Source: Lachnospiraceae bacterium
GTDB lineage: Bacteria; Bacillota; Clostridia; Lachnospirales; Lachnospiraceae
DNA length: 64,000 nucleotides
Assembly (NCBI GenBank): GCA_902363825.1
Contig: CABJBK010000011.1
Coordinates: forward strand, 39,409 to 103,408
Direction of reading: 5' to 3'
Shown: positions 18,561 to 44,575 of the stretch, piece after piece
Numbering within the stretch: the first letter of the stretch is position 1
How the letters are laid out: each line of letters starts with the position of its first letter
Made by a program: the position numbers and the translations under genes
Notes under the pieces: model-generated
The model's input: only the letters and a program-made list of their open reading frames with translations
Told to the model about the DNA's origin: nothing
Databases searched by the model: none

Positions 18561-18597
18561 AAAAAAAAGCCGGTCAGAAGTTCTTCTTCTAACCGAC
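18561..18597 (-). terminator. Intrinsic terminator at the end of cbiG, overlapping its stop codon
   Basis: A 12-bp stem with two G-U pairs (18569-18580 with 18586-18597) around a five-base loop is followed by eight T on the minus strand. The last three codons of cbiG form the 5' arm, so termination of translation and transcription are almost at the same place. Confidence 0.85.
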
Positions 18598-19668
18598 TGC
18601 TGCCCGTATTTTTGCAACCGCAAGCGTGATCCCGTCCCGCGCCTGCTTTTTCAATATCAGTTCTCCTCCGCCGTAGGATTCACAGCCCGCGAGTGCCGAC
18701 CGCTCACAGACATTATCCACACCGACTGTCTTTTTTACAAAATCCGAGGACGCAAACGCACCGGATATCTGTTTCAAAACCTCTGCGGAAAACGTGTGAT
18801 AGGGAACTGCCTGATGCGCTGCCCATCCCACGATACCCGCTTCCTCCTTTTTCCGGTCAATGGAAAAAATCCCGGCAACATCTTCTTCCGTAATGCCAAG
18901 CGCATCCAGGTTTTCCCGGATAAATGCCGCAATCTCGTTCTCCGTCTTTCCCCTTTTGCAGCCGATCCCAAGTACATATTCCTTTGGCTTTAGCGGAAGT
19001 ACCGCGTGGGCAAGCGCCTCTTTTTCTGTGGATATCACAAGGTCTGTCTGTCCATCCGGTGGATAAGTCTCCTGCGCGAACTCCTCCGGCAGTTCTTTAA
19101 GCAGCCCCCGAAACTTTGGTGCCACAGAGACTGTGACCGTCTCCTCCTCTAAAACTTTTTCCGAGATTTTTGCGATCCCCCGGCGGTCCAAAATTACAAG
19201 CGCATGATCCCGCGCAAATACATCCACCGCAAATTTTCCATTCACATCCGTTGCCGTTGTGATCACCGCAGTCGCAGAAAGCCGTGACGCGAGACGCTCC
19301 GCGATCTCATTTGCGCCTCCGACATGACCGGATAAGATCGGGATCACATACTGTCCGCACTCATCCACGACAAGCACCGGACTGTCCTTTAATTTGTCGC
19401 GCACCGCGCCCGCGATCGCGCGCACCGCGATTCCACACGCCCCGACAAAGATCAGCACGTTTTTTTGTTCAAACTGCTCACCTGCCCACTCCGCCAGCGG
19501 TTTTTCCAAAAAACAGATCCCATGTGCATCCGGATATTCTCTTTCGGTCTCTCCCGCTTTTTTCTGTCCGGTATAAAGCCGGATCTCGTCGTCCGCACTT
19601 AGCACATCCCGGATTTTTTCCGACAGCGCACGCCCTTTTTTTGTAAAGCTGATGACCGCCGTCCTCAT
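18589..19668 (-). CDS. cbiG: Cobalt-precorrin-5A hydrolase CbiG
   Basis: A 359-residue enzyme of the anaerobic cobalamin pathway that opens the delta-lactone of cobalt-precorrin-5A and releases acetaldehyde. The N-terminal half has the family segments LIFVGACGIAVRAIAG and ILSGHVGGANEIAERLA; the C-terminal domain has LGIGCKRGKTENEI and SIDRKKEEAG, ending in AGCESYGGGELI. Full length. Start overlaps the cbiF stop (ATGA). Confidence 0.95.
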   Translation of the reverse strand: MRTAVISFTKKGRALSEKIRDVLSADDEIRLYTGQKKAGETEREYPDAHGICFLEKPLAEWAGEQFEQKNVLIFVGACGIAVRAIAGAVRDKLKDSPVLVVDECGQYVIPILSGHVGGANEIAERLASRLSATAVITTATDVNGKFAVDVFARDHALVILDRRGIAKISEKVLEEETVTVSVAPKFRGLLKELPEEFAQETYPPDGQTDLVISTEKEALAHAVLPLKPKEYVLGIGCKRGKTENEIAAFIRENLDALGITEEDVAGIFSIDRKKEEAGIVGWAAHQAVPYHTFSAEVLKQISGAFASSDFVKKTVGVDNVCERSALAGCESYGGGELILKKQARDGITLAVAKIRAAVG

Positions 19669-20423
19669 GATCTCTTCCTCCGAAATTCCGTCTCAAAATC
19701 CGGGTCATACAGCTTTGAGCGCTCATAGCTTCGATGCGCGACCGCCTCTCCGACGAGGACGAGCGCAGTCTTTGTGATATTGTGTACACGCGCGGTCTCT
19801 TCCAGTTCTGCCAGCGTACAAAGATATGCTTCCTCCTCCGGCCAGGTCGCCTTGTATACAAGAGCCGCAGGCGTATCCGCCGGATAGCCGCCGGCGACAA
19901 GCCGCTCTGTGAGCTCCCCGAGTCTTCCGGTGCTCAGATAGATCGCCATGGATGCTCCATGTGCCGCAAAGCTCTCGATGCTCTCTCTCTCCGGAACCGG
20001 CGTTTTCCCCGCCATCCGCGTGATGATAAGCGACTGCGAGATCCCCGGAAGCGTGTATTCCAGATTTAAGGACGCCGCCGCGCCGAAGCACGCGCTGACA
20101 CCCGGACAACTCTCATAGGAAATCCCCTTTTCATCGAGGATGTCCATCTGCTCCCGCACCGCTCCGTAAATACTCGGTTCCCCCGTGTGCAGACGCACGG
20201 TCATCTTCTGTTCCTGTTCCGCCCGCTCCATCACGGCAATGACTTCCTCCAACGTCATGGTCGCGCTGTTAAAAATTTCACAATCCTTCTTCGCATAAGA
20301 AAGAAGTTCTGGATTGACCAGCGAACCTGCGTAAATGATGACATCCGCCTGTTCCAGATAGCGCCTGCCGCGCACTGTGATGAGATCCGGCGCGCCGGTT
20401 CCCGCTCCCACAAAATAAACCAT
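19665..20423 (-). CDS. cbiF: Cobalt-precorrin-4 C11-methyltransferase CbiF
   Basis: A 252-residue SAM-dependent tetrapyrrole methylase. VYFVGAGTGAPDLITVRG at the start and RLHTGEPSIYGAVREQM in the middle are the two glycine-rich binding loops; SCPGVSACFGAAAS completes the core. It methylates C11 of the corrin ring in the oxygen-independent pathway. It begins one base after cbiD with AAAGGAG upstream. Confidence 0.95.
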   Translation of the reverse strand: MVYFVGAGTGAPDLITVRGRRYLEQADVIIYAGSLVNPELLSYAKKDCEIFNSATMTLEEVIAVMERAEQEQKMTVRLHTGEPSIYGAVREQMDILDEKGISYESCPGVSACFGAAASLNLEYTLPGISQSLIITRMAGKTPVPERESIESFAAHGASMAIYLSTGRLGELTERLVAGGYPADTPAALVYKATWPEEEAYLCTLAELEETARVHNITKTALVLVGEAVAHRSYERSKLYDPDFETEFRRKRS

Positions 20424-20424
20424 A

Positions 20425-21591
20425 TCAGCCTTCTCCTTTCATGATCGCCAATCCCTGTTGTTTGATCGAAACAAGCAGTTCATGCGCATGCTCACTCGCC
20501 GCAAGCTCTCCAAATTCATTGGAATATAAAATACATTCGATCTCCATTTTCCCGGCGGCGCGCTTATTTAAGTAAAAACAGATCTTTTCCATGACACGGC
20601 GCATGACTGCTTCCAGTTTTTCCGCATCTTTCAGAAAAGCGAGTGCTTCCTCCGTCGTCACACAGCCCAGGATCTTCTTTGCCAGATCTGCCTGCACATC
20701 TTCCATAAGCGCCGCAGCCGCGAGCAGCTCCATCCGGCAGTCCGCCTCCCTCGAATGGGTATTCATGATCCCGCCCGAGACTTTGATGAGTTTGCCGATA
20801 TGACCGGTCATGAGCATGTGCGTAAATCCGTACTCCACCGCCATGTCGATCGTCTGTCCGATGAAATTGCTGCACTTGACACTGCGGTCAAGATCGTAAT
20901 CATACGTCCGTTTCATAAAATCCAACCCGTAGTTTCCCGGCGAAACCGCGACTAACTGCTCTCCAAGCGCCCGGTGCTGCCTTAGTTCCACGCGGATCGT
21001 ATCAAGCAGTGCCTGTGCGCTCATCGGTTCCACAATGCCGCTTGTTCCAAGGATGGAAATGCCTCCAACGATCCCCAGTCTCGGATTGAACGTGCTTTTT
21101 GCAAGCTCCCCGCCACCCGGCACTGAGATCTCCACCGCAAGCGCTCCATGGAAATCCAATGCCATACAAACCTCACACACCTCTTTTTCGATCATCTCTC
21201 TCGGCACATGGTTGATCGCCGCGTTTCCTACCGGCTGATCCAGCCCGGGACGGGTCACACGGCCAACGCCGCTTCCTCCGTCGATCGTGATCACAGGCTC
21301 TTTTTCCCGCACGTGCTCACTTTGATCCTCCGCGTTTATACCGTCCTGAAACGAGACTGCCGCATAGATGAGTGCCCCGGTCGTGACATCCGGGTCATCC
21401 CCGCCATCCTTTTGCACGGCGCACGAGACTTTCGTCTCCCCACGCACCGGATCACAGATCTTCGCGTGATAGAGGATGCCTTTCGGCGTTTCGATCGTGA
21501 TCTCTTTTTTCTCTTTTCCCGTTAAAAGCATATATGCTGCTGCCTTTGCCGCCGCAGCCGCACAGCTTCCCGTTGTGAATCCGTAACGCAT
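20425..21591 (-). CDS. cbiD: Cobalt-precorrin-5B C1-methyltransferase CbiD
   Basis: A protein of about 388 residues. The beginning MRYGFTTGSCAAAAAKAA is typical for CbiD, which is why I take ATG at 21591 rather than the in-frame ATG at 21612. The segments GSGVGRVTRPGLDQPVG, INHVPREMI and SVPGGGELAKSTFNPRLG follow the family order. It methylates C1 in the anaerobic corrin ring synthesis. It lies 27 bases after the U32-type gene, in the same operon. Confidence 0.94.
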   Translation of the reverse strand: MRYGFTTGSCAAAAAKAAAYMLLTGKEKKEITIETPKGILYHAKICDPVRGETKVSCAVQKDGGDDPDVTTGALIYAAVSFQDGINAEDQSEHVREKEPVITIDGGSGVGRVTRPGLDQPVGNAAINHVPREMIEKEVCEVCMALDFHGALAVEISVPGGGELAKSTFNPRLGIVGGISILGTSGIVEPMSAQALLDTIRVELRQHRALGEQLVAVSPGNYGLDFMKRTYDYDLDRSVKCSNFIGQTIDMAVEYGFTHMLMTGHIGKLIKVSGGIMNTHSREADCRMELLAAAALMEDVQADLAKKILGCVTTEEALAFLKDAEKLEAVMRRVMEKICFYLNKRAAGKMEIECILYSNEFGELAASEHAHELLVSIKQQGLAIMKGEG

Positions 21592-21618
21592 CGGTTCCCC
21601 GCTTCCTTCCATCCGTAT

Positions 21619-22590
21619 CTATAAATAATAACAGTTTTTCGTACATCCGCCCCGGAAAAGTTCGGTCCGTACCCGCTTTTGATACCGCGCTGCCTGCCCG
21701 GTTCCCATGCTTTCGACTTCCGCAAGGATCCGGATCGCCCGCCTCGCCTGCATGATGTCCCGCTTTGCATACTCCGCATAATTGCCGCGTCCCACGATCT
21801 TTAAATGCGTGACCCCCGCTTTTTTTAAGTCATATAACGCGCACAGGCCGCAACCGGTCGCCCCGGTCACATAGCCATCCGGTTCCGTTTCCACGCATAA
21901 CCCGGACCTTTCTTCCGCTGCCGCCAGACTGCTTTTCTTTCGCCCATCTATATTTCCAAGTTCATATGGCACATGGCACAGATGCGCAAACTCATCACAG
22001 TGAAAGGAATTGCAGTACGCGCCGGTAAAATGGCACATCTCGTTTAAGAAAAACGCCTCATATTCCGGGATCTCTCCCCTGCATTTTACAATGCACGCCC
22101 GCATCTGCGCAATACTGTTCTTCCGGTGAAAAATCACGCGGCGAATATCAAATTCTGCGATCTGTGCTAAAAACAGGGAATTGATCTCGGCGCATTCCCC
22201 GCTCAGATGGATATTGCAGGAGATTTTCTGTTCCCGCAGGTATAGGATCAGTGCCGGATCCGCAATGATAAACGTGTCAAATCCGATCTGCATACACGCG
22301 TCGATAAGTTCTGCGATCTCCTTATACTGCTCGCCTGTGTAATACAGGGAATTCAGGGCTAGTTTCACCGGCACACCGTAACAGTCCACCATCTTTTTTA
22401 ATATTTTCAGTTCCTCAAACGCGCCGATCTGAACGTTGTAATTCATGACTTCGCGCCGGTTTAACGGCTGCATGGTTCCGTATTTTTTACTCCAGGTAAA
22501 TGGAACATAGCCGCAGAAAAATTCATCTGCGCCAGCCTCGGCAAACGGAATGTATTCATCTAAAGAACCAAGCCCGGATACGATCTTCAC
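21619..22590 (-). CDS. U32-family (peptidase U32-like) protein with iron-sulfur-type cysteines
   Basis: A 323-residue TIM-barrel protein of the U32 family. NSLYYT, IHLSGECAEINS and VIFHRKNSI match the barrel strands; cysteines 186, 193, 198 and 205 stand where U32 proteins (such as UbiU/UbiV, RlhA) bind a 4Fe-4S cluster, and GCGLCALYDLKKAGVTHLKI is the typical last conserved block. GTG start at 22590 with GGAAGG in front. U32 proteins known in detail are oxygen-independent hydroxylases of tRNA, rRNA or ubiquinone rather than peptidases. Its place directly upstream of cbiDFG suggests a corrinoid-linked job, which is inference. Confidence 0.8.
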   Translation of the reverse strand: MKIVSGLGSLDEYIPFAEAGADEFFCGYVPFTWSKKYGTMQPLNRREVMNYNVQIGAFEELKILKKMVDCYGVPVKLALNSLYYTGEQYKEIAELIDACMQIGFDTFIIADPALILYLREQKISCNIHLSGECAEINSLFLAQIAEFDIRRVIFHRKNSIAQMRACIVKCRGEIPEYEAFFLNEMCHFTGAYCNSFHCDEFAHLCHVPYELGNIDGRKKSSLAAAEERSGLCVETEPDGYVTGATGCGLCALYDLKKAGVTHLKIVGRGNYAEYAKRDIMQARRAIRILAEVESMGTGQAARYQKRVRTELFRGGCTKNCYYL

Positions 22591-22626
22591 AACCTTCCAT
22601 CTCCTTCGTTTTTACGTCTGATATTC

Positions 22627-24006
22627 TTACATCAAATTTAGCACAATGCGGTCCGCTCCGTGCGCAATATAAGAAAAAAGCAGCGTATTTTCCGTCAGTA
22701 TCTGTGTGTCATACGAAAACAGCGAATTATATCTTCCGACCATATGCAGATGATCGGGATAGGAAAACACATAGTCCCCGCAATAACGCGGACAGGCCTC
22801 CGTCTCCCGCTGTCTGCCCCGGCTCCCTTCTCTGCACCTTGCGTAAAGCGGACAGTACTGGGACGTATTGGTCTGATAAAACGGAAAGTGGATACTGTTT
22901 TTCCCTTCCGGTAATTGTATACAGTATCCACAAGATTCTTGTTCAAAGCGCGTAATCCCATATGTTTTCTTCAGATATTCCCGGTAAAATGAACTGTTTA
23001 GCGCATTGTCCGCCGGCGGCTCATTCACACCGGAAACCCCGATCTTGTAACGCACGCGCGGATCTTTTCTCCGTTTGTTTAAAAGGACTCCAAACACCGG
23101 CTCAAACCAGGTTCCCCCCTCGCAGATCAGCGAGAGCATTCCCCAGTCGCCCGCCACGATCTCGATCCGGGTCTGCGCCCGGTCACACCATGCCGCGATC
23201 TGATCCAAAAGCTTTCTTGTATCCGCGATCCGTTCTTCCCGCAGATAGGAAAACACCAGCGTGATCTTTAAATGTTCCCGCTTCGCCTTATCGAAAAGCT
23301 CTTTTAATTTCTCCCAGTCCGGAAGCAGATGCGGACAGAACTGATTGCCAATGTAAAGGCGCCCCGGCAGATACTGCGCAAGCGGATGACGGGAAAGTCC
23401 ATGCTCTTTCCAGTAATTTTCGTAGAATACCTCTGCCGCTTCCTTTCGATATCGCTCATACAGCTCCGGACGATCCAGCTCTACCGCCAGTTCTGCCTGA
23501 TGCTCCCGCAGTGCAAAAAGAAGCCCGGACGCCTCAACCGCCTCCGTGTCGATGTCACCAAACCACGCCGCGCGCTGTTTCTCGAAATCCGTCGTGATCA
23601 CATCATCCAGCTTCGCCGGGTATCCGGTATAATCCTCCGAAAGCGCCGCATCATCGCCCGCAAGTTTCTTTTGGATATAATGGTCGTATGCCACATAGAG
23701 CTTTTGCACCGCTTTTTTGTAGCTTTCCTCCGCGATCTGTACTTCATACTCGAAATAGAACTGCCGCGCCGGATCCGCCCCCCGCTTGGACAAAATTTCT
23801 GTCACCGCCGGATGTTCCAGCACGATCCCGTCATACTGCCCCGCTCTGTCATCATAAAAATAAACTTCCAGCCGGGAAACGGTTCCGATCCGGTCCGCCG
23901 TCCGAAACACCGCCCTGTCTTCTTCCAGTTCCAGGATCCGCACTTCCAGACGCTGTCCGAAATCCTCTGTTATATAACCTGAAATCAGCGCAAACGGAAA
24001 CATCAT
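22627..24006 (-). CDS. Cysteine-rich protein, probable second U32-type partner
   Basis: A 459-residue protein that I cannot assign with certainty. The N-terminal ~210 residues (beta-rich, then helical) have no family I know. From about 213 on, RLYIGNQFCPHLLPDW, ITLVFSYLREERI and IEIVAGDWGMLSLI look like barrel strands of a U32-like fold. Six cysteines lie close together (359, 362, 385, 391, 405, 409), enough for an iron-sulfur cluster. It is followed 36 bases later by the clear U32 gene, like the UbiU-UbiV arrangement of two U32 proteins that form a complex. Confidence 0.6.
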   Translation of the reverse strand: MMFPFALISGYITEDFGQRLEVRILELEEDRAVFRTADRIGTVSRLEVYFYDDRAGQYDGIVLEHPAVTEILSKRGADPARQFYFEYEVQIAEESYKKAVQKLYVAYDHYIQKKLAGDDAALSEDYTGYPAKLDDVITTDFEKQRAAWFGDIDTEAVEASGLLFALREHQAELAVELDRPELYERYRKEAAEVFYENYWKEHGLSRHPLAQYLPGRLYIGNQFCPHLLPDWEKLKELFDKAKREHLKITLVFSYLREERIADTRKLLDQIAAWCDRAQTRIEIVAGDWGMLSLICEGGTWFEPVFGVLLNKRRKDPRVRYKIGVSGVNEPPADNALNSSFYREYLKKTYGITRFEQESCGYCIQLPEGKNSIHFPFYQTNTSQYCPLYARCREGSRGRQRETEACPRYCGDYVFSYPDHLHMVGRYNSLFSYDTQILTENTLLFSYIAHGADRIVLNLM

Positions 24007-24024
24007 TGTTATCGGATTTCCTCC

Positions 24025-24996
24025 TTACATGTACTGCCCGAGAAATGAAAAAACACTTTCCCAGTAAGCGTCTCCCAACACATACATCGCCTCGCCGTGT
24101 CCGGCCCCTTCCGCCGTCAGGCTCGTTTTGTTATCCCCCGGCTTTGCCTGATACAGGGTATCCATCATCTCATAGGGAATGAAATCATCCGCCGTTCCGT
24201 GGATGAACATCATCGGTTTTTCACAGGATGCAACCTGTTTTAACGCAGATGCCTCCTTGAACGAATACCTGGCTTTCACGGAAGAAAGCGCGCTTGCGCT
24301 ATAAAGAACCGGAAATTCCGGAAGCCCGAACCGGAGCTTTAACTCATTGGAAAAGATATCCCATACACTCGTGTAACCGCAGTCCTCAACAAATGCGCAC
24401 ACCTGATCCGGTGTATCTTCCCCGGAAGTCATCATCGTGGTCGCTGCCCCCATGGAAACTCCGTAGAGTACGATTTTTGCCGATGTATCCTGTCCGGTGA
24501 CCCAGTCCACCCAGTCAAGTACATCCTTTCTGTCAAGCCAGCCCATACCGACATAATCGCCCTCGCTGTCCCCACAGGCGCGCAGATCCGGCGAAAGCAC
24601 CTGATACCCCGCATCATAAAAATGCTGCGCCGCCGCAACACCCGCGCGGTGATCACTGCGATAACCATGCAGTGTGATCACCCACAGATGGCTGTCCGTA
24701 TTCTCATAATATACTCCGTTTAATGCCAGTCCGTCATCCGATGTGATCCCCACCGTTTCTCCCGGATGCTCCGCTAAAAATTCCTCGTTTTTTGTCTGCT
24801 GTAATGCCCGGTTGTCCGCGATCGTCTTTTCAACGCCTTCTCCCGGTGTCTCCACATCCAGTGACACTTCCCTGTCGCCGCCGTCTCCACTCCGTCCGAT
24901 CGCGTAGTTGACTAAGTAATTGCTGATAAATAAATCTGCTGCCAGTAAAATAACGACCACCGCGATCAGCAGTTTCGGTAAAATCTTTTTTCTCAT
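24025..24996 (-). CDS. Membrane-anchored alpha/beta hydrolase
   Basis: A 323-residue protein with an N-terminal membrane helix (LLIAVVVILLAADLFI) and an extracytoplasmic alpha/beta-hydrolase body. The nucleophile elbow is YGVSMGAATT; the aspartate is likely in HGTADDFIPYE and the histidine in GAGHGEAMY. It could be an esterase or acylaminoacyl-type peptidase. It is 18 bases before the U32-type pair and may share that transcript; it has its own ribosome site GGGAGG. Confidence 0.85.
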   Translation of the reverse strand: MRKKILPKLLIAVVVILLAADLFISNYLVNYAIGRSGDGGDREVSLDVETPGEGVEKTIADNRALQQTKNEEFLAEHPGETVGITSDDGLALNGVYYENTDSHLWVITLHGYRSDHRAGVAAAQHFYDAGYQVLSPDLRACGDSEGDYVGMGWLDRKDVLDWVDWVTGQDTSAKIVLYGVSMGAATTMMTSGEDTPDQVCAFVEDCGYTSVWDIFSNELKLRFGLPEFPVLYSASALSSVKARYSFKEASALKQVASCEKPMMFIHGTADDFIPYEMMDTLYQAKPGDNKTSLTAEGAGHGEAMYVLGDAYWESVFSFLGQYM

Positions 24997-25079
24997 AACG
25001 TTCCTCCCATTTGTAGTTTTATTTCATTAACTACCATCATACCATTTTTGCTGCCGGGAAATCAACTTTTGCGGGGCGC

Positions 25080-26492
25080 TTATTTTTCCCTCAAATACAC
25101 TTCCACGACCGCTCCGCCCGCTTCATTCCGGTATTCCAGATACCCGCCTTGCGCCGCCGCAAATTTCCTTACGATGGCAAGTCCAAGCCCCTGATGCGTG
25201 CTGTCGTGGCGGCTTTCATCCCCGCTGTAAAATCCCTGATCCGCGTAAATCAGATCCCGCTTTGAAAAACCTCTTCCGAAATTATGGACCGAAATTTTTA
25301 AAAATTGTTCCCCCTCTCTGCAATTTTCCGCAACCGAAAGGCGGATCCCTTTTTCCGTATCGCCATACGCAAACGCATTGCTCAGTATATTTTCAAACGC
25401 ACGGATCAAAAGCTGCCGGTCACAGATCACCCCGCCTTTTGTTTTTTCACCGGAAAACAAGACAAAACTGCCCTGCGCCGCCGCCGTCTGCCTTGCAATA
25501 TCAAAAAGCAGTTCCTTTACTTCCTCCCCCGAAAACCGTTCCTGCTGCTCGGGGAGACTGCCGCCGTCCAGTACCTGCCGCATGGCTGCAAGATAGTCCT
25601 CGATCTGCTGCACATTGGAAAGAATGTATTCCGTGCTCTCCCCTGCCTCATCCGGCAGTGTTTCCTCCGCCAGAAGCTCCGCATGCCCGCGGATCACGGT
25701 GAGCGGTGTTTTGATGTCGTGCGCCAGTGCCGCCATCTGCTCTTTTTTCTGCTGCTCCAGCTTCCACTGCTGCTCCAGCGACTCTTTTAACGCCCGCTTC
25801 ATTTTTTCAAACGAATCCATAACGGTATTGATCTCTCTGATATCCGATGCCTCGATCTCGAAATCCAGTTCCTGATCTGCGATTTTTTTCGTGACACGCT
25901 CTAACTTCTGCAATCTTTTTTTCAGTACTTTCGCAAATGTCCGCGACACAAGCACTGCATTGGCAAGAAGCAGCAGCACAAACAAAAAAAGGACAACAAC
26001 GATCAGGATCCCCTCCGCATTCGGCAGATGATCGTTTAACTTTTCATTGGCGAACTGCAAATGGAGCGCGTATTTTACAATGCAGACCTCTCCGTCTTTC
26101 CGCCGGATATACTGATAATAGAAAGCTCCTCCCGCCGATGACCGCTCCTCCTCGTAATGCTTCCACGCCGGCTCTTTTTCCTCATCCGCAAAATTTCCAT
26201 ACAGATACCATCCATCCGCATCATACACGCCGTAGCTGCACCGGTTCGGGATAAGATCGGAGGTTACCACGTCTGCCTCCGCGATCGCGTCCCGTTTCTC
26301 ATCGATCTGCTCCTCCGCATAATTTGCCGGAAGGAACAGACTGCTCAAGGGAAACAGGCAGATGACACCGATCAGAATCACAAAAATGAGCAGGATATTC
26401 ACACAGAAGATTACCGTATATCTGGTAAAAAGCCCCGCAAGCGTGACCTCTCTCTTTTTTCGTTTTATTTCCATCTGTACCCGATCCCCCAT
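25080..26492 (-). CDS. Sensor histidine kinase of the lantibiotic-type module
   Basis: A 470-residue membrane kinase. Two helices (about 25-50 and 165-185) flank an extracytoplasmic sensor region. HAMP follows, then the phosphoacceptor ALAHDIKTPLTVIRGH, an N-box (FENILSNAFAYG) and the ATP lid with GRGFSKRDLIY and HQGLGLAIVRKFA. The start at ATG 26492 has GGTGGAG in front and overlaps the regulator gene by 28 bases. It senses the stress that turns on the ABC genes beside it. Confidence 0.9.
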   Translation of the reverse strand: MGDRVQMEIKRKKREVTLAGLFTRYTVIFCVNILLIFVILIGVICLFPLSSLFLPANYAEEQIDEKRDAIAEADVVTSDLIPNRCSYGVYDADGWYLYGNFADEEKEPAWKHYEEERSSAGGAFYYQYIRRKDGEVCIVKYALHLQFANEKLNDHLPNAEGILIVVVLFLFVLLLLANAVLVSRTFAKVLKKRLQKLERVTKKIADQELDFEIEASDIREINTVMDSFEKMKRALKESLEQQWKLEQQKKEQMAALAHDIKTPLTVIRGHAELLAEETLPDEAGESTEYILSNVQQIEDYLAAMRQVLDGGSLPEQQERFSGEEVKELLFDIARQTAAAQGSFVLFSGEKTKGGVICDRQLLIRAFENILSNAFAYGDTEKGIRLSVAENCREGEQFLKISVHNFGRGFSKRDLIYADQGFYSGDESRHDSTHQGLGLAIVRKFAAAQGGYLEYRNEAGGAVVEVYLREK

Positions 26493-27124
26493 ACCGTCTC
26501 CACCGGAGAAACCTCATATTTCTGAAATTTTGCCCGGATATTTTTTATGTGCTCAGTGATCGCGGAACTGTCCGCCTCCCCGTCATATCCGAACACATGC
26601 TCATAAATCTGCTCTTTGGAAAACACCTGTCCGCGGTTTAATGCCAGATACTCACAAATTGCGTACTCGCTCTTCGTAAGGGAGATCTGCTGTCCCTTGC
26701 AGGAAATCTGCTTTGCCTGCAAAGAAATTTCCACCTCACCGATCGTGACAAGATGCTTTTTTTCCCGCAGTTCCCGCCGAAGATGCGCCGCCACACGCGC
26801 CCGCAGCTCCCCGATGCCAAACGGTTTTATGATATAGTCATCCCCGCCGACGCCAAGTCCGATCATCAGATCCTTTTCCTCGGATTTCGCCGTCACAAAC
26901 AGGATCGGACAGTCCACCTTATCCCGGATCTTCTCACAGAGCGTAAAGCCGTCGATCCCCGGCATCATCACATCCAACAGGATAAGCTGGTACTGATTTA
27001 AGTGATCCATCTCTAACTTTTCCGGATCTTCGACGGTCGTCACGTCGTATCCTTCTTTTTGCAGCGTCCGCTCGATCAGGCGCAAAATTCCCCTGTCGTC
27101 ATCGATTACAAGTATTCTAGTCAT
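26465..27124 (-). CDS. OmpR-family response regulator of the lantibiotic-type module
   Basis: A 219-residue regulator: receiver domain (ILVIDDDRGILR, phospho-Asp in LLDVMMPGIDGF, FVTAKSEEKD) and a winged-helix output domain (SLTKSEYAICEYLALN, ending GIGYRWK). ATG at 27124 lies in the stop of the permease gene (overlap of eight bases), and GGGAAGG is upstream. Its likely target is the pair of 11-bp repeats at 29381-29402 before the transporter genes. Confidence 0.92.
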   Translation of the reverse strand: MTRILVIDDDRGILRLIERTLQKEGYDVTTVEDPEKLEMDHLNQYQLILLDVMMPGIDGFTLCEKIRDKVDCPILFVTAKSEEKDLMIGLGVGGDDYIIKPFGIGELRARVAAHLRRELREKKHLVTIGEVEISLQAKQISCKGQQISLTKSEYAICEYLALNRGQVFSKEQIYEHVFGYDGEADSSAITEHIKNIRAKFQKYEVSPVETVWGIGYRWK

Positions 27125-27875
27125 CACAGTGCCTTCCCTCATAAAAATGAAACCATACCATGATTATGACACAAACGGCAGCCCCAATCAATCCACCCAT
27201 GACTGCGCTCTGCCACAGCTGCGCCTTTGTATAAACATCCGCTTCCGGGTAAAGCGCCACTGTAACATACGTCATGCTTCCCCTTGCGCCGAAAGCCGCC
27301 GGGACAAACTGCCAGATGCCATCCCCCAGTCCGGTTAAAAACAACGCCGAGACCAGACTTTCCGTCACTGCCGCTCCCATGGAGACTGCCCTTGAAAATC
27401 TTAAGTTCAAAAAAAGATGCTCCGCATACAGCGGAATGCTGCCTGCCCAGAGAAGGAGCGCCGAGACCGCATAGACCACCAGAGGAATCTCCGTATTTTT
27501 TAAGAAAGACCATTCCCCCGCCGCCAAAATGCCGACCGCACCAATCACTGCGAAAAAAGCGAGTATCAAAAGCGCCATCCACTTCGCCAGAAACGCATAC
27601 GCGCGCCGCGTCGTCGTTCCAAGAAACGTCTGAAAGTGTCCGACTTCCTCTAACGCGACACTTTTGGCACACAAAATACTGATGACCACCGGAAACGCGA
27701 TCCCGACTGCTTCAAAAAATCCCGAAACCTGCAATATCACACTCCAGTTTGATGACGCGTAATAGCATAAAAAGACCACCGCCGGCAAAACCGCCCCTGC
27801 GATATGCATGGGATAACATCCACTATGCCGCATCTTTAAAAGTTCCGCTTTCCACGCTCTCCCTGTCTCTCTCAT
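27117..27875 (-). CDS. Lantibiotic-immunity ABC permease (MutG/SpaG-like)
   Basis: A 252-residue protein with six hydrophobic segments, like the second permease of lantibiotic-immunity ABC-2 transporters (LanG). The start at ATG 27875 overlaps the preceding permease stop (ATGA); a longer in-frame extension upstream is out-of-frame reading of that gene. ALEEVGHFQTFLGTT in the first half is a typical motif region of this group. It exports or expels membrane-bound antimicrobial peptide together with its partners. Confidence 0.8.
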   Translation of the reverse strand: MRETGRAWKAELLKMRHSGCYPMHIAGAVLPAVVFLCYYASSNWSVILQVSGFFEAVGIAFPVVISILCAKSVALEEVGHFQTFLGTTTRRAYAFLAKWMALLILAFFAVIGAVGILAAGEWSFLKNTEIPLVVYAVSALLLWAGSIPLYAEHLFLNLRFSRAVSMGAAVTESLVSALFLTGLGDGIWQFVPAAFGARGSMTYVTVALYPEADVYTKAQLWQSAVMGGLIGAAVCVIIMVWFHFYEGRHCDD

Positions 27876-28639
27876 GCTTTTTCCACCTGCCTTTTGAACC
27901 ACCTGCGGCTCCCCGCCCGGAGAAGAAATAACCAGAGCACCGATGCCACCATTCCAAAAAGCACGGCACGCGGCTCCATAAGTTCCGGCTTCCACGTCAT
28001 CTGCCCCTCTTTTGCGATCAGTCCGTTTGGCAGAATCTCTAACAGTACGCACATCAGACGCGCCGTGATCCCCTGCGGCAAAAGAAAAAAAGCAGCGTCA
28101 AGCGACAGGCTGCCCGCAAGCACCATATACACTGCAAGGTGAAGCAAAAACATCAGAAATCCCCCGAACTTCTGGGACATCCATAAGCAAAACGGGATCT
28201 GCCAGAGCGAGGTAAGCCAGATCACGCCTGCCGCCACAATCTGCATCCGGACTGCCGGCATCCCCACCATGGTATAGGAAAGCATCTCCGTCAGACAAAA
28301 GTTTCCTGCCACAGCCCCTGCAAGCAAAATCCCATTTGCGATCGCAGTCATGCCTGCCGCAGTAAGGATTTTGGCATCCCACACCTTTCCAATATCCACC
28401 GGAAGCGCAAAGATCGTGCGGTTTTGCTGTTTTTTATCTTTGCCCCCGACCACAGCGCAGATGATCGCGGTCATGCCGGGAAACATTATCATATACCACC
28501 AGTTAAAGCTGTCTACGGCAAAATAATTTCCGGTAAGAAACGCTGCCAGAAGACAGGTCATAAGCGGCATTGCCACGATAAGAAAAGGCAGAAACGTATG
28601 CCGGTATTTGAGCTTTTCCGCTAAAAAATATTGTTTCAT
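27872..28639 (-). CDS. Lantibiotic-immunity ABC permease (MutE/EpiE-like)
   Basis: A 255-residue membrane protein with six predicted helices. The beginning KYRHTFLPFLIVAMPL and FNWWYMIMFPG fit the LanE permease family. It overlaps the ATPase stop by four bases and the next permease by four, so the three transporter genes are tightly coupled. Confidence 0.82.
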   Translation of the reverse strand: MKQYFLAEKLKYRHTFLPFLIVAMPLMTCLLAAFLTGNYFAVDSFNWWYMIMFPGMTAIICAVVGGKDKKQQNRTIFALPVDIGKVWDAKILTAAGMTAIANGILLAGAVAGNFCLTEMLSYTMVGMPAVRMQIVAAGVIWLTSLWQIPFCLWMSQKFGGFLMFLLHLAVYMVLAGSLSLDAAFFLLPQGITARLMCVLLEILPNGLIAKEGQMTWKPELMEPRAVLFGMVASVLWLFLLRAGSRRWFKRQVEKA

Positions 28640-29337
28640 CGCACACGCCCCCTCTCTGCAATGTCCAAAAACAGCTTTTCCAGATCCGCGCCCTGATCCA
28701 CTCTGCCCTCATATTCCAGTCTGCCATGCGATAAGATCCCGATATGATCCGCCATCTGCCGGATCTCACTTAAAATATGGCTCGAAACAAGAACCGTCAT
28801 TCCCTGCCCCGGAAAACTTTTTATGAGTTCCCTTAAGTCCCGGATCCCGACCGGATCAAGCCCGTTGGTCGGTTCATCCAGGATCAGAAGCTTCGGCTCT
28901 CCCAGCAGCGCGGTGGCGATCCCAAGCCGCTGTTTCATGCCAAGCGAAAATGCTCCCGCTTTCTTTTTCCCGGTCTGCGTAAGATCCACGGTTTGTAACA
29001 CTTTTTCGATACGGCTTTCCGGCACGCCAAGCATCAGCGCGCGCACTTTGAGATTCTCCCGGGCTGTCAGATTTTCATAGATCGGCGGTGTCTCAATCAG
29101 CGAGCCGATCTTTCCCAGATCTTTTCTGCTCCACACATGTCCGTCAAAATACAGGCTGCCCGCAGTCGGTGTCAAAATCCCCGTCATGGTTTTTAACAAC
29201 GTGGATTTTCCCGCGCCGTTTGCTCCGAGCAGGCCATATACCGAGTTTTCCGGAATCGCTAACGTCACCCGGTCCAGGGCTTTCTGCTTCCCGAACTGTT
29301 TGGAAAGCTGCTTTGTTCTTAAAATCGCTTTACTCAT
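28636..29337 (-). CDS. Lantibiotic-immunity ABC ATPase (LanF/BcrA-like)
   Basis: A 233-residue ATPase: Walker A GANGAGKST, signature FSLGMKQRLGIA, Walker B LLILDEPTNGLDP and switch VSSHILSEI. The signature LSLGMKQR-type is typical of the BcrA/LanF branch that protects against bacitracin or lantibiotics. ATG at 29337 follows GGGAGG. No lantibiotic structural or modification gene is nearby, so it works as a stand-alone defence. Confidence 0.92.
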   Translation of the reverse strand: MSKAILRTKQLSKQFGKQKALDRVTLAIPENSVYGLLGANGAGKSTLLKTMTGILTPTAGSLYFDGHVWSRKDLGKIGSLIETPPIYENLTARENLKVRALMLGVPESRIEKVLQTVDLTQTGKKKAGAFSLGMKQRLGIATALLGEPKLLILDEPTNGLDPVGIRDLRELIKSFPGQGMTVLVSSHILSEIRQMADHIGILSHGRLEYEGRVDQGADLEKLFLDIAERGRVR

Positions 29338-29368
29338 AAATTCCTCCCTGTTTCTTTTTGTGCTTACA

Positions 29369-29402
29369 GGATACCGGATGTTTCTAAGGAATTTATAAGG
29401 AA
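29369..29402 (-). promoter_or_regulatory. Promoter with 11-bp tandem repeats for the immunity transporter
   Basis: On the minus strand TTCCTTATAAA and TTCCTTAGAAA stand side by side (29402-29381), then six bases, then TATCCT as -10 (29374-29369). There is no good -35; the repeats occupy that place. Tandem 11-bp repeats at this distance are what OmpR-family dimers bind when they activate. Confidence 0.65.
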
Positions 29403-29441
29403 AATATCATTAATCTGATATTAAAAAAGAAAATCTGATAT
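29396..29441 (+). promoter_or_regulatory. Direct repeat and possible sigma-D (SigD) promoter of the binding protein-chemoreceptor pair
   Basis: AATCTGATAT occurs at 29412-29421 and 29432-29441, period 20. TAAG at 29396-29399, 15 bases, then CTGATAT at 29415-29421 is close to the motility sigma factor pattern TAAA-N15-GCCGATAT. The match is imperfect, so this is a candidate only. Confidence 0.35.
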
Positions 29442-29513
29442 ATATTTTTTTACCAGTATGATAAAAAGAGAGCAGATATTGACACAGATGTTTATTTTAC
29501 GGGAGGAATTTCT

Positions 29514-30851
29514 ATGAATCGAAGAAAAATCAGCAAATCTGTCTGGCTCCTTTTATGTACAACTTCTCTGTACGGATGTGGCAGTTCTACTGTAGAAACA
29601 AACTACACATCCAATGAAGGACAGGTTGTAAACATATATTGCTGGAATGATGAATTTAAAAGCATATACGAAAGCTACGCAGCAGATATTGCTGAATCAC
29701 ATGGCGTAGAAGTTAATTTTTTCATAATATCAGATGACGACAATGCTTATCAGATCAACTTGGATGAAGCGCTTGCAAACCAGGAGAAGGTCATTGATGA
29801 TGATCGTGTGGATCTTTTTCTCATCGAGGCGGATTATGCTGGGAAATATGTAAAATCTTCTTATACACTTGATGTAAAAAAAGACATCGGTCTGACAGAT
29901 GACGATCTGAAAAACCAGTACTCTTATACCAAAGCAATTGTAAATGATGATGGTGTGCAAAAAGGAGTTACCTGGCAGGCAACTCCCGGTCTCTTTGCTT
30001 ACCGCCGCTCCGTCGCAAAACAGGTTCTTGGCACCGATGATCCCGATCAGGTACAGCAAAAACTTTCAACCTGGGATGGTTTTGATGCCGTTGCTGACCA
30101 GATGCACAATGCTGGTTATTATATGTTATCCGGCTATGACGATTCCTATCGTCCTTTTTCCAACAATATGCAGACTCCATGGGTTGTCAATAATCAGATT
30201 CAGATCGACCCAAGCATTCAAAACTGGATCACACAGACAAAAAAATATTCCGAAAATAATTACTGCAATCACACTACTCTGTGGAGTCCTCAATGGAATC
30301 AGGATCAGGGACCTGATGGAAATGTATTCGGTTTCTTTTATTCTACATGGGGCATCAATTTCACCCTGATGAGTAACTCTCTTGCCAACTCAAACGATCC
30401 TGCTCAGGTCGGAAACGGAATCTATGGTGATTATGCAGTCTGTGAAGGACCCGAGCCCTATTACTGGGGCGGAACCTGGATGTGCGCCGCAGATGGAACC
30501 GATAACCTTCCATTTATCAAAGACTTGATGTATCGTCTAACCTGTGATGAAAAGACCATGAAACAAATCACACTTGATACCCAGGACTACACCAATAATG
30601 AAGCAGCAATGGATGAAATCGCCCAAAGTGATTATTCTTCTGATTTTCTTGGCGGTCAGAATCACATTGCCCTGTTTGCTGAAGCTGCAAAAAAAATAGA
30701 TATGAGCAATATTTCCGATTATGATAAAGACTGCAATGAAGTTATTCAGGAATCCCTTCATCCTTATTTTGACGGTGAAATTTCTCTCGATGAAGCGATC
30801 AATAATTTCTACAGTAAAATAGAATCTCTTCATCCAGAACTTTCCTATTAA
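29514..30851 (+). CDS. Solute-binding lipoprotein paired with a chemoreceptor
   Basis: A 445-residue lipoprotein (LYGCGS, cysteine near residue 23) of the extracellular solute-binding type used by sugar ABC importers. [12 protein letters not shown] near the start and the later [15 protein letters not shown] and [11 protein letters not shown] match carbohydrate-binding members. No permease or ATPase is beside it; the next gene, 23 bases on, is a chemotaxis receptor. So it probably delivers a ligand signal rather than cargo. The pair is more AT-rich than its neighbours. GGGAGG before the start. Confidence 0.8.
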
Positions 30852-30874
30852 TCTGCTTTGAAAAGAGGTACACT

Positions 30875-32605
30875 ATGAAAATTTTAAAAAATATGAGTAT
30901 AAAATTAAAGGTTATGCTGCCGATCGCAATCCTTGGGATTGCCGTACTGTTAGCTGGTATTTCCAGTCTTATAAATTCCAAACGTTTACTAAATGCAGGC
31001 GTTGTTATTTCGAATGATTGTTCCCAAAGTATCGAATTGCTCATGGATATGTCTGCCGATCTTGAATCCATGGGAAAAAATATGTATGCGCATTGCGATG
31101 CGGATAACTCCACAAGCAAAAACAATTTTAAAAACACCATTGATTCTAAAATGGAAGACATGCAGGGCTATTTTGATGAATACAAAAAGCAGCCAATGAC
31201 AGACCGTGAAAAAGAATATTTCGGTGCTATGACAGATAAATTTTCAAAATATAAGGACGGAATGGATCAGGTACTTGATGCGAGTTCCAAGGGAGACAAT
31301 CCCGGTGCTATGACAACAATTAATGTAATTCAGAAACCCGCCGAAGATTATCTTTCCAAAAAAATAGAAAGTCTGATCTCCATGCGTAAAGATGCTATGA
31401 ACTCTGCGCTCCTGGATCAGCAAAAAACTTATCTTTTCGCCAGAAATTCTGCCATTATTCTGGTTGCTGTTTCTGTTGTTATGATTTTAATTGCAACCTG
31501 GATCTGCCTGAAAGGCATTGTTGCTCCAATGCAGTACATCAGCCGCTCCCTGCAGCAAATTGTTGACAGCATTGAAAATAATGAAGGCGATCTGTCCGTC
31601 AGACTTTCCATTTCTGGAAATGATGAAATCGGAAGCGTTGGAAAAAACGTAAACGCGTTTATCCTCACACTCCAAAATATTATGAAACATATATCCGAAA
31701 GCTCCGTGGAGATGAACCGCATTGTTTCTGATGTAGATGAAAAGATTCGTTGTTCAGAGCAGAATTCAGGTGATATTTCTGTTGCAATGGAAGAACTTTC
31801 TGCCTCCATGATCTCTGTATCCGAAACCGTATCCGGTATTTCCAGCGATATGAAAGATATTGAAGACCGCGCTAAGGAACTTTCCGAAAAATCCGAGCAT
31901 CTGTTAGCTTACTCCGATACTATGGATCAAAATGCGACTACTCTCAAGCAAAGCACCATTTTAAACAAGGAAAATACAAGTAAAGTTGTCACTGACATTA
32001 TTGAAAAGCTTAAAGACGCTATTGAAAACAGCAAGCAGGTCGAACGTGTCAACGAATTAACCAACGATATTCTTGGTATTGCGGATCAGACTAACCTTCT
32101 GGCATTAAACGCATCTATCGAAGCTGCCAGAGCCGGTCAGGTTGGCCGCGGATTTGCCGTAGTTGCCTCAGAGATCGGTCATCTGTCGGAATCCAGCCGC
32201 AATGCCGCTGTCAATATCCAGTCGATCAATCAGACGATTGTCGGAACTGTAACCGAACTGATCCAGAATGCCAATGATCTTGTCGCGTATATTCAGCAGA
32301 ATATTCTTCCTGACTACGACAAATTTGTGGACGCTGGAACCCAGTACAATGATGATGCCGTTTACATCAATGGTATTGTTGAAAACTTTAATAATATGTC
32401 CTTAGAACTGCGGCAATGTACCGAACATACCATGAACTATATTGACAATATCATTGCCTCTGTAACAGAAGGATCCAAAGGCATAAATGTAGCTGCTGAT
32501 AACACCGCAAATCTTTCTGACGAAATAACTAATATCTCCGAACAGATTAAACAAAACAAGATTGTGGCGGATACCCTCAGTTCCGAGGCCAAACGATTTG
32601 TATGA
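30875..32605 (+). CDS. Methyl-accepting chemotaxis protein
   Basis: A 576-residue receptor. Helix 1 is near residues 13-33, the outer helical domain spans about 34-185 (four-helix-bundle-like), helix 2 is near 191-212, HAMP about 213-265. The signalling tip [21 protein letters not shown] at about 401-421 is intact, so it can couple to CheA/CheW. Because the lipoprotein gene is directly upstream, the outer domain probably docks the loaded binding protein. No other che genes are in the window. Confidence 0.93.
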
Positions 32606-32693
32606 TACTTTGGAAATGCGCTAAAATCATATAGAAATGTTCACCGGTTTTTGATACTATATAACAAAGATATGGAAAGGAATGATACCGGGG

Positions 32694-33677
32694 ATGCACG
32701 AAAATTTAAACTGGGCAGTACTTGGCACAGGCGTCATCGCAAACGAGATGGCACAGGCACTGCAGAAAATGGGGAAATCTTTATACGCGGTTGGAAACCG
32801 TACACACGAAAAAGCCGTCACTTTTGCGGAAAAATACGGTGTTTCAAAGGTGTATGACAAAATTGATGACATGTTTTATGATGATGCGGTTGACATCATC
32901 TATATCGCCAGCCCGCACAACACGCACTACGCGTTTATGGAGCAGGCGCTTTTGCACGGAAAACACCTTCTGGTAGAAAAGTCGATCACGTTAAACAGCA
33001 GGGAGCTTGACAAAATGATCGCGCTCGCAAACGAAAAACACCTACTCCTTGCCGAAGCCATGACCATCTGGCATATGCCGCTTTATCAAAAACTCTGGGA
33101 GATCGTAAAGAGTGGGGAACTTGGAAAAGTTCAGATCATAACCATGAATTTCGGAAGTTTTAAAGAATATGACATGAAAAACCGCTTTTTTAATATGGAT
33201 CTCGCCGGCGGCGCCATGTTAGACATCGGCGTATACGCGCTCTCGATCGTAAGAAGCTTTATGGATGAGACGCCGGACGATATCGTAAGCCAGTGGAAAG
33301 CCTCGCCGACCGGTTCGGACGAGCAGGCGACCATTCTGTTAAAAAACGGCTCCGGCCAGATGGCGACTGTCGCTCTCTCCATGCACTCCAAACAGCCCAA
33401 GCGCGCGATGATTAGCTGCGAACAGGGCTATATTGAGATCATGGAATATCCAAGAGCCGACAAGGCTGTTATCGTAGACGCAAACACCGGCAATGTGCGA
33501 GAGATCGCCTGCGGAGACACCGCAAACGCACTGTATTACGAGATGTTTGACATGGAAAACGCGGTAAAAACCGGCGACGCTTCCTCCATGCACCTCGCGT
33601 ATTCCAAAGATGTCATGGACATCATGACCAGACTGCGGAAAAGCTGGAACATGAAATATCCGGGCGAAACGTGGTAA
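32694..33677 (+). CDS. Gfo/Idh/MocA-family NAD(P)-dependent oxidoreductase
   Basis: A protein of about 327 residues. The Rossmann start is NWAVLGTGVIANEMA and the catalytic segment VEKSITLN holds the EK motif (usually EKP) with the expected lysine; IASPHNTHYAFM fits too. It oxidises or isomerises sugars, inositols or similar polyols. ATG at 32694 gives the normal N terminus; an earlier in-frame ATG at 32682 follows GGAAAGG too closely. No sugar gene is next to it, so the substrate is open. Confidence 0.87.
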   Translation: MHENLNWAVLGTGVIANEMAQALQKMGKSLYAVGNRTHEKAVTFAEKYGVSKVYDKIDDMFYDDAVDIIYIASPHNTHYAFMEQALLHGKHLLVEKSITLNSRELDKMIALANEKHLLLAEAMTIWHMPLYQKLWEIVKSGELGKVQIITMNFGSFKEYDMKNRFFNMDLAGGAMLDIGVYALSIVRSFMDETPDDIVSQWKASPTGSDEQATILLKNGSGQMATVALSMHSKQPKRAMISCEQGYIEIMEYPRADKAVIVDANTGNVREIACGDTANALYYEMFDMENAVKTGDASSMHLAYSKDVMDIMTRLRKSWNMKYPGETW

Positions 33678-33679
33678 AT

Positions 33680-34315
33680 CTATCGCCCAAGCTCATACAA
33701 CAGGGCGTTGCAGATCGCGGCAGCTACATTGCTGCCGCCTTTTCTTCCCCTGTTTATGATATAAGGCACATCTGTTTTTAAGATCAGTTCTTTCGCCGCT
33801 TCCACATTGACAAATCCAACCGGAACTCCAATGATAAACGCCGGGCGAAACTCCCCGCCTGTTATCATCTCATAGAGCCGGATCAGCGCTGTCGGCGCAT
33901 TACCGACCGCAAAGATCACAGGCTTATTTAACTGCGCCGCAAATTCCATGCTGACGGTCGCGCGGGTGACGCCCCGTTCCTTTGCCAGTGCCGCGACTTT
34001 TTCATCTGCCATAAAACAGTGCGCCTCCCCGCCGTGGCGCGCAAGCGCGCGTTTGTTGATCCCGGCAAGCGCCATATTGGTATCCGTCACAATATCCGCG
34101 CCCTGCAGGATCAGTTTTTTCGCCGTCTCGATCGCATCCGGCGCATAGACCATGGTTTTTACATAATCAAAATCCGCAGTTGTATGGATCACACGCTTGG
34201 TCACCGGCTTTTGTTCCTCCGGGATCACCAGTCCGCGCTCCTTTAATTCTTCCTCGATGATGGCAAAACTTCTCGCCTCGATCTCTCCCGGCTTTACATA
34301 TTCAATCCCTTCCAT
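33680..34315 (-). CDS. cbiC: Precorrin-8X methylmutase (cobalt-precorrin-8 type)
   Basis: A protein of about 211 residues. MEGIEYVKPGEIEARSF at the start and the catalytic histidine in VIHTTADFDY are typical; IGVPVGFVNVEAAKEL and NRGRKGGSNVAAAI end the core. It moves a methyl group from C11 to C12, making cobyrinic acid. ATG at 34315 lies one base after the cobD-like stop. It is the last gene of the 14-gene operon. The plus-strand oxidoreductase stop is two bases away. Confidence 0.95.
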   Translation of the reverse strand: MEGIEYVKPGEIEARSFAIIEEELKERGLVIPEEQKPVTKRVIHTTADFDYVKTMVYAPDAIETAKKLILQGADIVTDTNMALAGINKRALARHGGEAHCFMADEKVAALAKERGVTRATVSMEFAAQLNKPVIFAVGNAPTALIRLYEMITGGEFRPAFIIGVPVGFVNVEAAKELILKTDVPYIINRGRKGGSNVAAAICNALLYELGR

Positions 34316-34316
34316 G

Positions 34317-35372
34317 TCATGCACCTTCCCTTTCCTTTTTGTCCGCGCAGATCCCGGCAAGCGCACGAAGCAGCCTGTCATTTTCGCCGCGCGTCTTCAC
34401 CGCGATCCGGTAATATCCCGTTTTCAGTCCCCGGAAATTACTGCAGTCCCGGATCAGTATCCCCTGCTTTAACAACTCCTCATACAGCGGAAGTTCACTG
34501 TACAGTAATAAAAAATCTGCCTCTCCCGGAAAAACTCTGATCCCAAGTTTTTCTAACTGTGTCACGAGATAACTCCGCTCCTCCTTTAAAAACGTGACCG
34601 TTTTTCTGCGGTAATCCTCTTCGCCCGCCGCAGCAACACCTGCCCGCTGCGCAAAGACCGAAAGGTTCCACTCCGGCAGCTGGTCTTTGATCCGCTCTTT
34701 TACCGCTTTATTTTCACAGACCAGATAGCCGAGCCGCACGCCGGGGATCGCAAAGATTTTGGTGAACGCCCGCACTACGATGAGATTTTCAAATTCGCCC
34801 GTCCGCTTAAAAAAAGTCCGCACTTCCCATCCGTCCGTAAATTCAATAAAGCACTCATCCAAAACCACCGTGATCCCGTTGTCCCTGCAAAAAGCAATGA
34901 TCTTTTCCAGAAGCTCCGGATTTACTCTGCTTCCGGTCGGATTATTCGGATTTGCCAGAAACAAAAGATCCACGCCGTCCGCCAGTTCTCTAAAGATCGC
35001 ATCGTCCGGTGAAAAACCGTTTTCTTCGCTCATATGGTAATAACGCACTTCCGCCCCCGATGCCGCAGCCGCCTTCTCATATCCCAGAAATGACGGCACC
35101 GGGATCAGTATTTTCTCCGGTTTGAGTGCATGCATGAGCGCCACAAACAGTTCCGACGCTCCGTTGCCGCACACGATATGCTCTGTGGATACCCCCGTCA
35201 TCCGGCCGATCGCCTGCAACAGCTCCTCCGCCTCCATGTCCGGGTAGTGCGTACACTCCGATACCGCCTGCGTGAGTACCTCCCGCACACGCTCCGGTAT
35301 GCCAAGCGGATTGATGTTGACCGAGAAATCCAGTTTCACCGGATTGCGGTAAATGTCTCCTCCATGCTTCAT
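34317..35372 (-). CDS. cobD: Threonine-phosphate decarboxylase-like aminotransferase CobD
   Basis: A PLP enzyme of about 351 residues. FSVNINPLGIPERV at the start, CGNGASELF, NPNNPTGSRVNP and the PLP lysine in FTKIFAIPGVRLGYL are all present. CobD makes (R)-1-amino-2-propanol phosphate for the nucleotide loop. ATG at 35372 has GGAAGGAG upstream. Histidinol-phosphate aminotransferase is a close relative, but the operon position supports CobD. Confidence 0.9.
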   Translation of the reverse strand: MKHGGDIYRNPVKLDFSVNINPLGIPERVREVLTQAVSECTHYPDMEAEELLQAIGRMTGVSTEHIVCGNGASELFVALMHALKPEKILIPVPSFLGYEKAAAASGAEVRYYHMSEENGFSPDDAIFRELADGVDLLFLANPNNPTGSRVNPELLEKIIAFCRDNGITVVLDECFIEFTDGWEVRTFFKRTGEFENLIVVRAFTKIFAIPGVRLGYLVCENKAVKERIKDQLPEWNLSVFAQRAGVAAAGEEDYRRKTVTFLKEERSYLVTQLEKLGIRVFPGEADFLLLYSELPLYEELLKQGILIRDCSNFRGLKTGYYRIAVKTRGENDRLLRALAGICADKKEREGA

Positions 35373-35450
35373 GTTTTCGCTCCTTCCCATCCTGTCTTCC
35401 TAACCCAAATAAGCCGATGCAAACGACAGGCAATTACCTAATTCCCTGCC

Positions 35451-37066: not shown

Positions 37067-37440
37067 ATGACACGCTCCACCCTTTCTGATTCTGCCGCAA
37101 TGGAGATTAAGATCCTGCCAAGCCTGTCGCGGTATTCCCGCTCAGCCCGCTTCATCGGCACAATGCCGTTTCCGACTTCATCCGCAACGATCACGCAGTC
37201 TGGGTGTGCCTTAAGCCATGCCGCCGCGACCGCCTCCGCGTCTTTTCCAGCCAGAAGGAGCCGCCGGATCCACAGATGAAAATGCAAAAACAGCACGCGC
37301 TCCGGCTGCGCGGTCAGATCCGCGTCTTCAAATCCAAGCCCGGTCGTTTCGCCGTCTATGACCACCAGCGGTTCCCCTTTATATTTCCTTTTTACATAAT
37401 CTGTCTTTCCCTGCGCGTAACCGCCCACATAAAGTTCCAT
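37039..37440 (-). CDS. CobU-like P-loop protein, short second copy
   Basis: A 133-residue protein with Walker A GGYAQGKTDY near its start, and VIVADEVGNGIVP and RLGRILISIAAESERV near the end, the closing blocks of CobU-type cobinamide kinase/guanylyltransferases. It lacks the central part with the guanylylated histidine. A complete cobU lies two genes upstream. So it may be a regulatory or specialised nucleotide-binding subunit. ATG at 37440 overlaps the cobS stop region (one base apart). Confidence 0.75.
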   Translation of the reverse strand: MELYVGGYAQGKTDYVKRKYKGEPLVVIDGETTGLGFEDADLTAQPERVLFLHFHLWIRRLLLAGKDAEAVAAAWLKAHPDCVIVADEVGNGIVPMKRAEREYRDRLGRILISIAAESERVERVICGIGQRLK

Positions 37441-37441
37441 C

Positions 37442-38745: not shown

Positions 38746-38756
38746 AGTTTCCTCAC

Positions 38757-42405: not shown

Positions 42406-42410
42406 GCTGT

Positions 42411-44574: not shown

Positions 44575-44575
44575 C

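Follow-up and report, generated by a model that had tools for sequence, protein, structure and literature searches.

The window analysed here, a stretch of 64,000 nucleotides of contig CABJBK010000011.1 from a Lachnospiraceae bacterium (assembly GCA_902363825.1, positions 39,409 to 103,408 of the forward strand), carries one tight run of five minus-strand genes, in which two genes referred to as V and U are followed by the cobalamin biosynthesis genes cbiD, cbiF and cbiG. The open reading frames, order, strand and coordinates of these genes agreed with a preliminary description made from the sequence alone, and the three downstream genes matched CbiD, CbiF/CobM and CbiG. The 27-base gap that had been described between the U stop and cbiD was borne out with the cbiD start at 21591 (MRYGFTTGSC), and the homologue in locus L115 begins with the identical MRYGFTTGSC. 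The features of the run are as follows.

22627..24006, minus strand: V, a predicted 459-residue PilZ-like/U32-like fusion (UbiV-like subunit), from the AlphaFold2 model and structure matches; no Pfam or NCBIfam name
23662..24006, minus strand: V residues 1-115, predicted PilZ-like domain without the usual cyclic di-GMP motifs
22630..23520, minus strand: V residues 163-459, predicted U32-like barrel with C224, C385, C405 and C409, from the model and conservation
21619..22590, minus strand: U, a 323-residue U32 protein (UbiU-like subunit), matching PF01136
21976..22035, minus strand: U C186, C193, C198 and C205 (C-X6-C-X4-C-X6-C); C186, C193 and C205 kept in 47/47 sequences, C198 in 45/47
21841..21852, minus strand: U C247 and C250, kept in 47/47
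21631..21645, minus strand: U C-terminal C316 and C320, kept in 47/47
20425..21591, minus strand: cbiD, TIGR00312 at 431 bits (cut-off 200); likely start 21591, listed open reading frame ATG at 21612
19665..20423, minus strand: cbiF/cobM, TIGR01465 at 330 bits (cut-off 260)
18589..19668, minus strand: cbiG, PF01890 and PF11760 above cut-off

Protein U matched PF01136 with an E value of 4.8e-21 and 75.6 bits (cut-off 22.4) and is thus a member of the Peptidase_U32 superfamily. It remained below the cut-offs of the UbiU equivalog NF047963 (53 bits, cut-off 440) and of the TrhP model (33.8 bits, cut-off 534). Seven of its cysteines were invariant in all 47 aligned sequences, and the set at 186, 193, 198 and 205 was found exactly where it had been described, mostly within a region of the U model with a low predicted local distance difference test score (pLDDT). 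Upon comparison with the ligand spacing of UbiU, CX6CX16CX38C, the CX6C pair was present in U, whereas the later spacing differed, and in the MAFFT alignment A3 only C186 among the U cysteines fell on a UbiU ligand.

Protein V matched no Pfam or NCBIfam family at an E value of 1, and its earlier label as a U32-type protein had therefore been a guess from the sequence; nevertheless, the AlphaFold2 model supported a U32-like barrel. When V and 18 homologues were scanned singly against Pfam, no PF01136, U32 or PilZ model was found at E 10, and the homologues matched just 11 families, all unrelated, with E values no better than 0.0048. The UbiV equivalog NF047965 (cut-off 275 bits) also gave no match to V. 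The model of V, with a mean pLDDT of 94.2, matched PilZ domains over residues 1-115, and the best match of its barrel was the U32 protein 5d88. V is thus confidently modelled as a PilZ-like domain fused to a U32-like barrel, and the fold together with the cysteines suggests that it is a remote relative of the Peptidase_U32 superfamily.

V has nine cysteines, six of which were confirmed to cluster at 359, 362, 385, 391, 405 and 409. C224, C385, C405 and C409 were kept in all 79 V sequences, and in alignment A8 they fell on C39, C180, C193 and C197 of E. coli UbiV; two of the four rows of short V-like proteins in that alignment, which are described below, lacked the last cysteine of this quartet. 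The direct sequence link between V and UbiV was not significant from V alone, and only a V profile pooled with the short V-like proteins scored above shuffles against UbiV, modestly. No clear match was obtained when the V and U profiles were compared, and sequence searches of the PDB with V, U and the short V family revealed no convincing relative. The c-di-GMP binding motifs of PilZ domains are RxxxR and [DN]xSxxG; these were found in 8 and 2, respectively, of the 79 N-terminal parts of V, so the signature is missing from nearly all of them. Among viral contigs, 38 pattern matches included no relative of V. We also observed a 359-residue metagenome protein, P0038, with 98% identity to V over 72% and a CbiB-type PF03186 match, possibly from a chimeric contig.

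Scanning of genome contigs revealed 55 V loci, including those of Roseburia, Blautia and many Clostridium, one of them Clostridium beijerinckii (L027). Of the 52 loci carrying both genes, 49 have V and U side by side, and three V loci were without U (L001, L035 and L043, the last with 10 kb of sequence beyond V). The two genes need not be strictly adjacent, because they lie almost 5 kb apart in Roseburia inulinivorans (L047/L121), where an aminoacyl-tRNA synthetase gene is directly upstream of V. The family of G001 (Roseburia porci) had V in 16 of 397 genomes and that of G014 in 33 of 206, so the distribution of V is patchy; these counts may be low, as candidates were incompletely scored in many genomes of the former family and in a few of the latter, and the 16 include G402, with a short V-like protein, and G413, with V in two pieces. 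The nearest relative found, V of G001, was 58% identical to V of the window. V was interrupted by one internal TAA in G016 (L016/L065) and lay in two open reading frames in L053 and L016, and it may therefore be dispensable in these cases. Tight neighbours of V-U, of which 20 of 30 were scanned, included a phosphoesterase, hydrolases, TrmO, a Nudix protein and a glycoside hydrolase; across the 55 loci there was no wider conserved neighbourhood and no gene regularly alongside, and prephenate dehydratase was uninformative as a marker. V and U form a conserved gene pair of clostridia, which stands alone in relatives.

The preliminary description had proposed that the pair may be an anaerobic hydroxylase or carrier acting on a corrinoid or its lower ligand. 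The tight same-strand run, with U 27 bases from cbiD, favours such a member of the cobamide pathway, which would hydroxylate a corrinoid intermediate or a lower-ligand precursor. Against this, CbiD, CbiF or CbiG was found near V in none of the 55 loci (tblastn, E 1e-8, in the available flanks, which reached at least 3 kb downstream in 45 loci and on both sides in 40); homologues of V-U lie mostly away from cobalamin genes, which the preliminary description had named as a refutation of its proposal. In the family of G001, CbiD was somewhat but not significantly more frequent in V genomes than in the others (12/16 versus 218/381, Fisher p 0.20; 10/14 V genomes when G402 and G413 were left out), and in the family of G014 the values were 23/33 and 116/173 (p 0.84). 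Conversely, 218 of the 230 CbiD genomes of the first family and 116 of the 139 of the second had no V match, and a CbiD match was present in 36 of 49 V genomes and lacking in the other 13, some of them fragmentary assemblies; absence of CbiD was read from the matches listed for each genome. Where a full-length V and cbiD shared a contig, they were 115 kb to 3.1 Mb apart among the matches listed (eight genomes). An association of V-U with cobalamin genes across the genomes searched was thus not supported, and an open-access literature search found nothing linking U32 proteins, cbiD and cobalamin.

The gene order of relatives most likely accounts for the adjacency. In the genus of G001, CbiD was found in 29 of 62 genomes, and cbiC was directly upstream of cbiD on the same strand in 28 of 30 cbiD loci; of the other two, one stops at a contig end and one has a fragmented cbiD. 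In none of the 28 did U or V lie upstream of cbiD. Locus L117 has the run cbiC-cbiD-cbiF-cbiG. The operon also breaks in other places: L115, from G001, retains cbiC-cbiD, but neither cbiF nor cbiG comes after it. In the window, the main operon finishes with cbiC at 33680, and approximately 12 kb separate this gene from the cbiD start at 21591.

33680..34381, minus strand: cbiC, the gene that ends the main cob operon, with NCBIfam cobalt-precorrin-8 and precorrin-8X methylmutase matches below their cut-offs
21613..33679, no single strand: the block of approximately 12 kb between cbiC and cbiD, delimited from the gene order of relatives, with V-U at its cbiD end

Because the cbiC-cbiD junction of relatives is missing in the window, V-U most likely lies beside cobalamin genes only because the operon broke at that spot. 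An ancestral cbiC-cbiD-cbiF-cbiG run would have been split after cbiC by the 12-kb block, which would have stranded cbiDFG directly behind V-U, perhaps under the V-U promoter and co-transcribed with the pair. Given the empty count at the 55 loci, the absence of significant co-occurrence in two families and the cbiC-cbiD junction in relatives, a corrinoid function was rejected as the main explanation, and we regard it as improbable.

The 12-kb block also carries genes with Pfam matches to a GFO/IDH oxidoreductase, a methyl-accepting chemotaxis protein, a sensor kinase, a response regulator, an ABC ATPase and an alpha/beta hydrolase, and three more genes without a Pfam match. When the ends of the block were compared (351 and 401 bases), the longest repeat was a 10-base inverted match. 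Its plus-strand segment 29514-33677, with the chemotaxis and oxidoreductase genes, has a G+C content of 0.42 versus 0.51-0.54 around it and is perhaps acquired DNA. The alpha/beta hydrolase (24025-24996) is on the same strand as V and 18 bases upstream of it; relatives with 39-44% identity were present at five of the 55 V loci (L011, L015, L018, L019 and L025, all Clostridium), downstream of V-U and on the opposite strand. A cobalamin riboswitch (46771-46964) precedes the long minus-strand operon (33680-46964), which reads cbiK, a NEAT-like gene, a btuF-like binding protein gene, btuC, btuD, cobQ, cobT, cobU, cobS, a second cobU-like gene, cobC, cbiB, cobD and cbiC, named from best matches of which several are below NCBIfam cut-offs. 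The NEAT-like gene is flanked by cbiK and the btuF-like gene, and the two CobU-like genes lie at 38191-38745 and, as a partial match, at 37039-37488. The annotated stretches showed no cbiL, cbiH, cbiE/T, cbiJ or cbiA. A terminator-like hairpin of 13 pairs was observed on the minus strand at the end of cbiG (18568-18598). Terminator-like sites were in excess (13 versus 6.4 in shuffles), whereas the promoter scan was at chance level (8 found versus 6.1 expected).

Taken together, we read V-U as a UbiU/UbiV-like, probably iron-sulfur pair with a PilZ-like addition, because of the barrel match and the cysteines that fall on the UbiV ligands. On balance, the pair is probably a two-subunit UbiU-UbiV-like U32 enzyme with a non-corrinoid substrate, whose place before cbiDFG is a by-product of the operon split. 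Of the earlier proposal, a two-protein U32 system of the UbiU/UbiV type, probably with iron-sulfur clusters and possibly hydroxylating without oxygen, was thus retained, while the corrinoid substrate was not. Some points weigh against this assignment. In the alternative alignment A4, C391 of V, not C385, falls on UbiV C180, contrary to the exact quartet match. In G446, V-U lies approximately 6 kb downstream of a cbiK-NEAT-btuF-btuC-btuD run, which mildly favours the corrinoid alternative; the intervening genes include one on the opposite strand, and cbiD of G446 is 162 kb away. In addition, an assembly error may be the source of the U-cbiD arrangement.

According to passages of PMC6747719, UbiU pairs with UbiV in a heterodimer, and each of the two holds one [4Fe-4S] cluster. 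By analogy, V and U would form a complex, and each subunit would be a barrel whose conserved cysteine set holds a putative [4Fe-4S] site. The family name Peptidase_U32 might suggest that U and V are peptidases; however, the invariant cysteine sets and the pairing fit the iron-sulfur U32 proteins described in those passages, and a peptidase role is very improbable. The likeliest chemistry, again by analogy, would be oxygen-independent hydroxylation of a non-corrinoid substrate. Parts of PMC11574389 and PMC10470549 name prephenate as the proposed source of oxygen for U32 hydroxylases, and it would probably serve as the donor here as well. The PilZ-like domain of V could be a regulatory or docking module, and docking is as likely as nucleotide sensing because the c-di-GMP motifs are missing. 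A more far-reaching proposal, in which V senses a nucleotide or a partner through this domain and toggles hydroxylation in clostridia as a switchable oxygen-independent hydroxylase of a new class, is speculative and rather unlikely.

As to the substrate, RNA is a tentative first choice, solely because it is the target of two characterised U32 hydroxylases. Hydroxylation of tRNA or rRNA by V-U, in the manner of TrhP or RlhA, would be a special case of the UbiU-UbiV-like enzyme and is possible but doubtful. The TrhP match to U, TrmO 9 bases downstream in L033, the aminoacyl-tRNA synthetase gene in L047 and a tRNA-dihydrouridine-synthase-like gene flanking eight of the 55 loci, six of them Clostridium (named by eye, without a family search), are consistent with it, whereas the remaining neighbours are unrelated, and the patchy distribution would be odd for a core RNA modification.

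A second special case comes from rare sister pairs at five loci (L080, L081, L082, L083 and L084), in which short V-like proteins of 258-316 residues, without a PilZ-like part, each adjoin a U32 gene. At L083:3097-6269, the pair precedes a radical SAM/SPASM gene of the kind found in peptide maturases (HxsB-like, with 194 bits, short of the cut-off) and a transporter-like gene named by eye; at L084:4000-8361, two radical SAM genes are just upstream of the pair, and L082 has a C39-peptidase-like gene. It is possible that these sister pairs are U32 hydroxylase pairs in peptide modification. That V-U likewise modifies a peptide or protein is unlikely, as radical SAM genes were present at just two of the five sister loci, among the neighbours scanned rather than every open reading frame, and none was found among the 20 scanned tight neighbours of V-U.

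The evidence supports V-U as a UbiU/UbiV variant whose larger subunit lacks any Pfam or NCBIfam name. No description of a PilZ-U32 fusion was found in the open-access literature searched, in which the sole match to PilZ, U32 and peptidase together was a paper on a denitrification regulon (PMC6710368). As oxygen-independent hydroxylases, U32 proteins form a young class for which few substrates are known, and V-U of Blautia, Roseburia and many Clostridium offers a defined target for a new anaerobic oxidation and for the regulability of U32 enzymes. The case also illustrates how genes that become neighbours when an operon breaks can be taken, wrongly, for parts of one pathway.

We compared V-U with known systems and found likenesses and differences in each. 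TrhP and RlhA are single-protein enzymes. They are U32 proteins, as is U, which the TrhP model matches weakly; they differ in having no V partner, and U is far below the TrhP cut-off. The PilZ domains of Alg44, MrkH, YcgR and MotI resemble the predicted fold of V residues 1-115, although no PilZ Pfam model was found for V or its homologues and the two motifs are nearly always missing. MK0906 (PDB 5d88), called uncharacterised in a passage of PMC11574389, shares the barrel fold of the V and U models, with identities of only 8 and 11% to the two. UbiU-UbiV of E. coli, which acts in anaerobic ubiquinone synthesis, differs in that V-U stays below the NCBIfam cut-offs, has the gene order V-U rather than U-V, carries an N-terminal extension of at least 160 residues with the PilZ-like domain in V, and has extra invariant cysteines in U. 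Ubiquinone synthesis is not known in clostridia. Nevertheless, both systems consist of two adjacent genes for one UbiU-like and one UbiV-like barrel, the V quartet aligns with the four UbiV cysteines C39, C180, C193 and C197, and U and UbiU both contain a CX6C pair.
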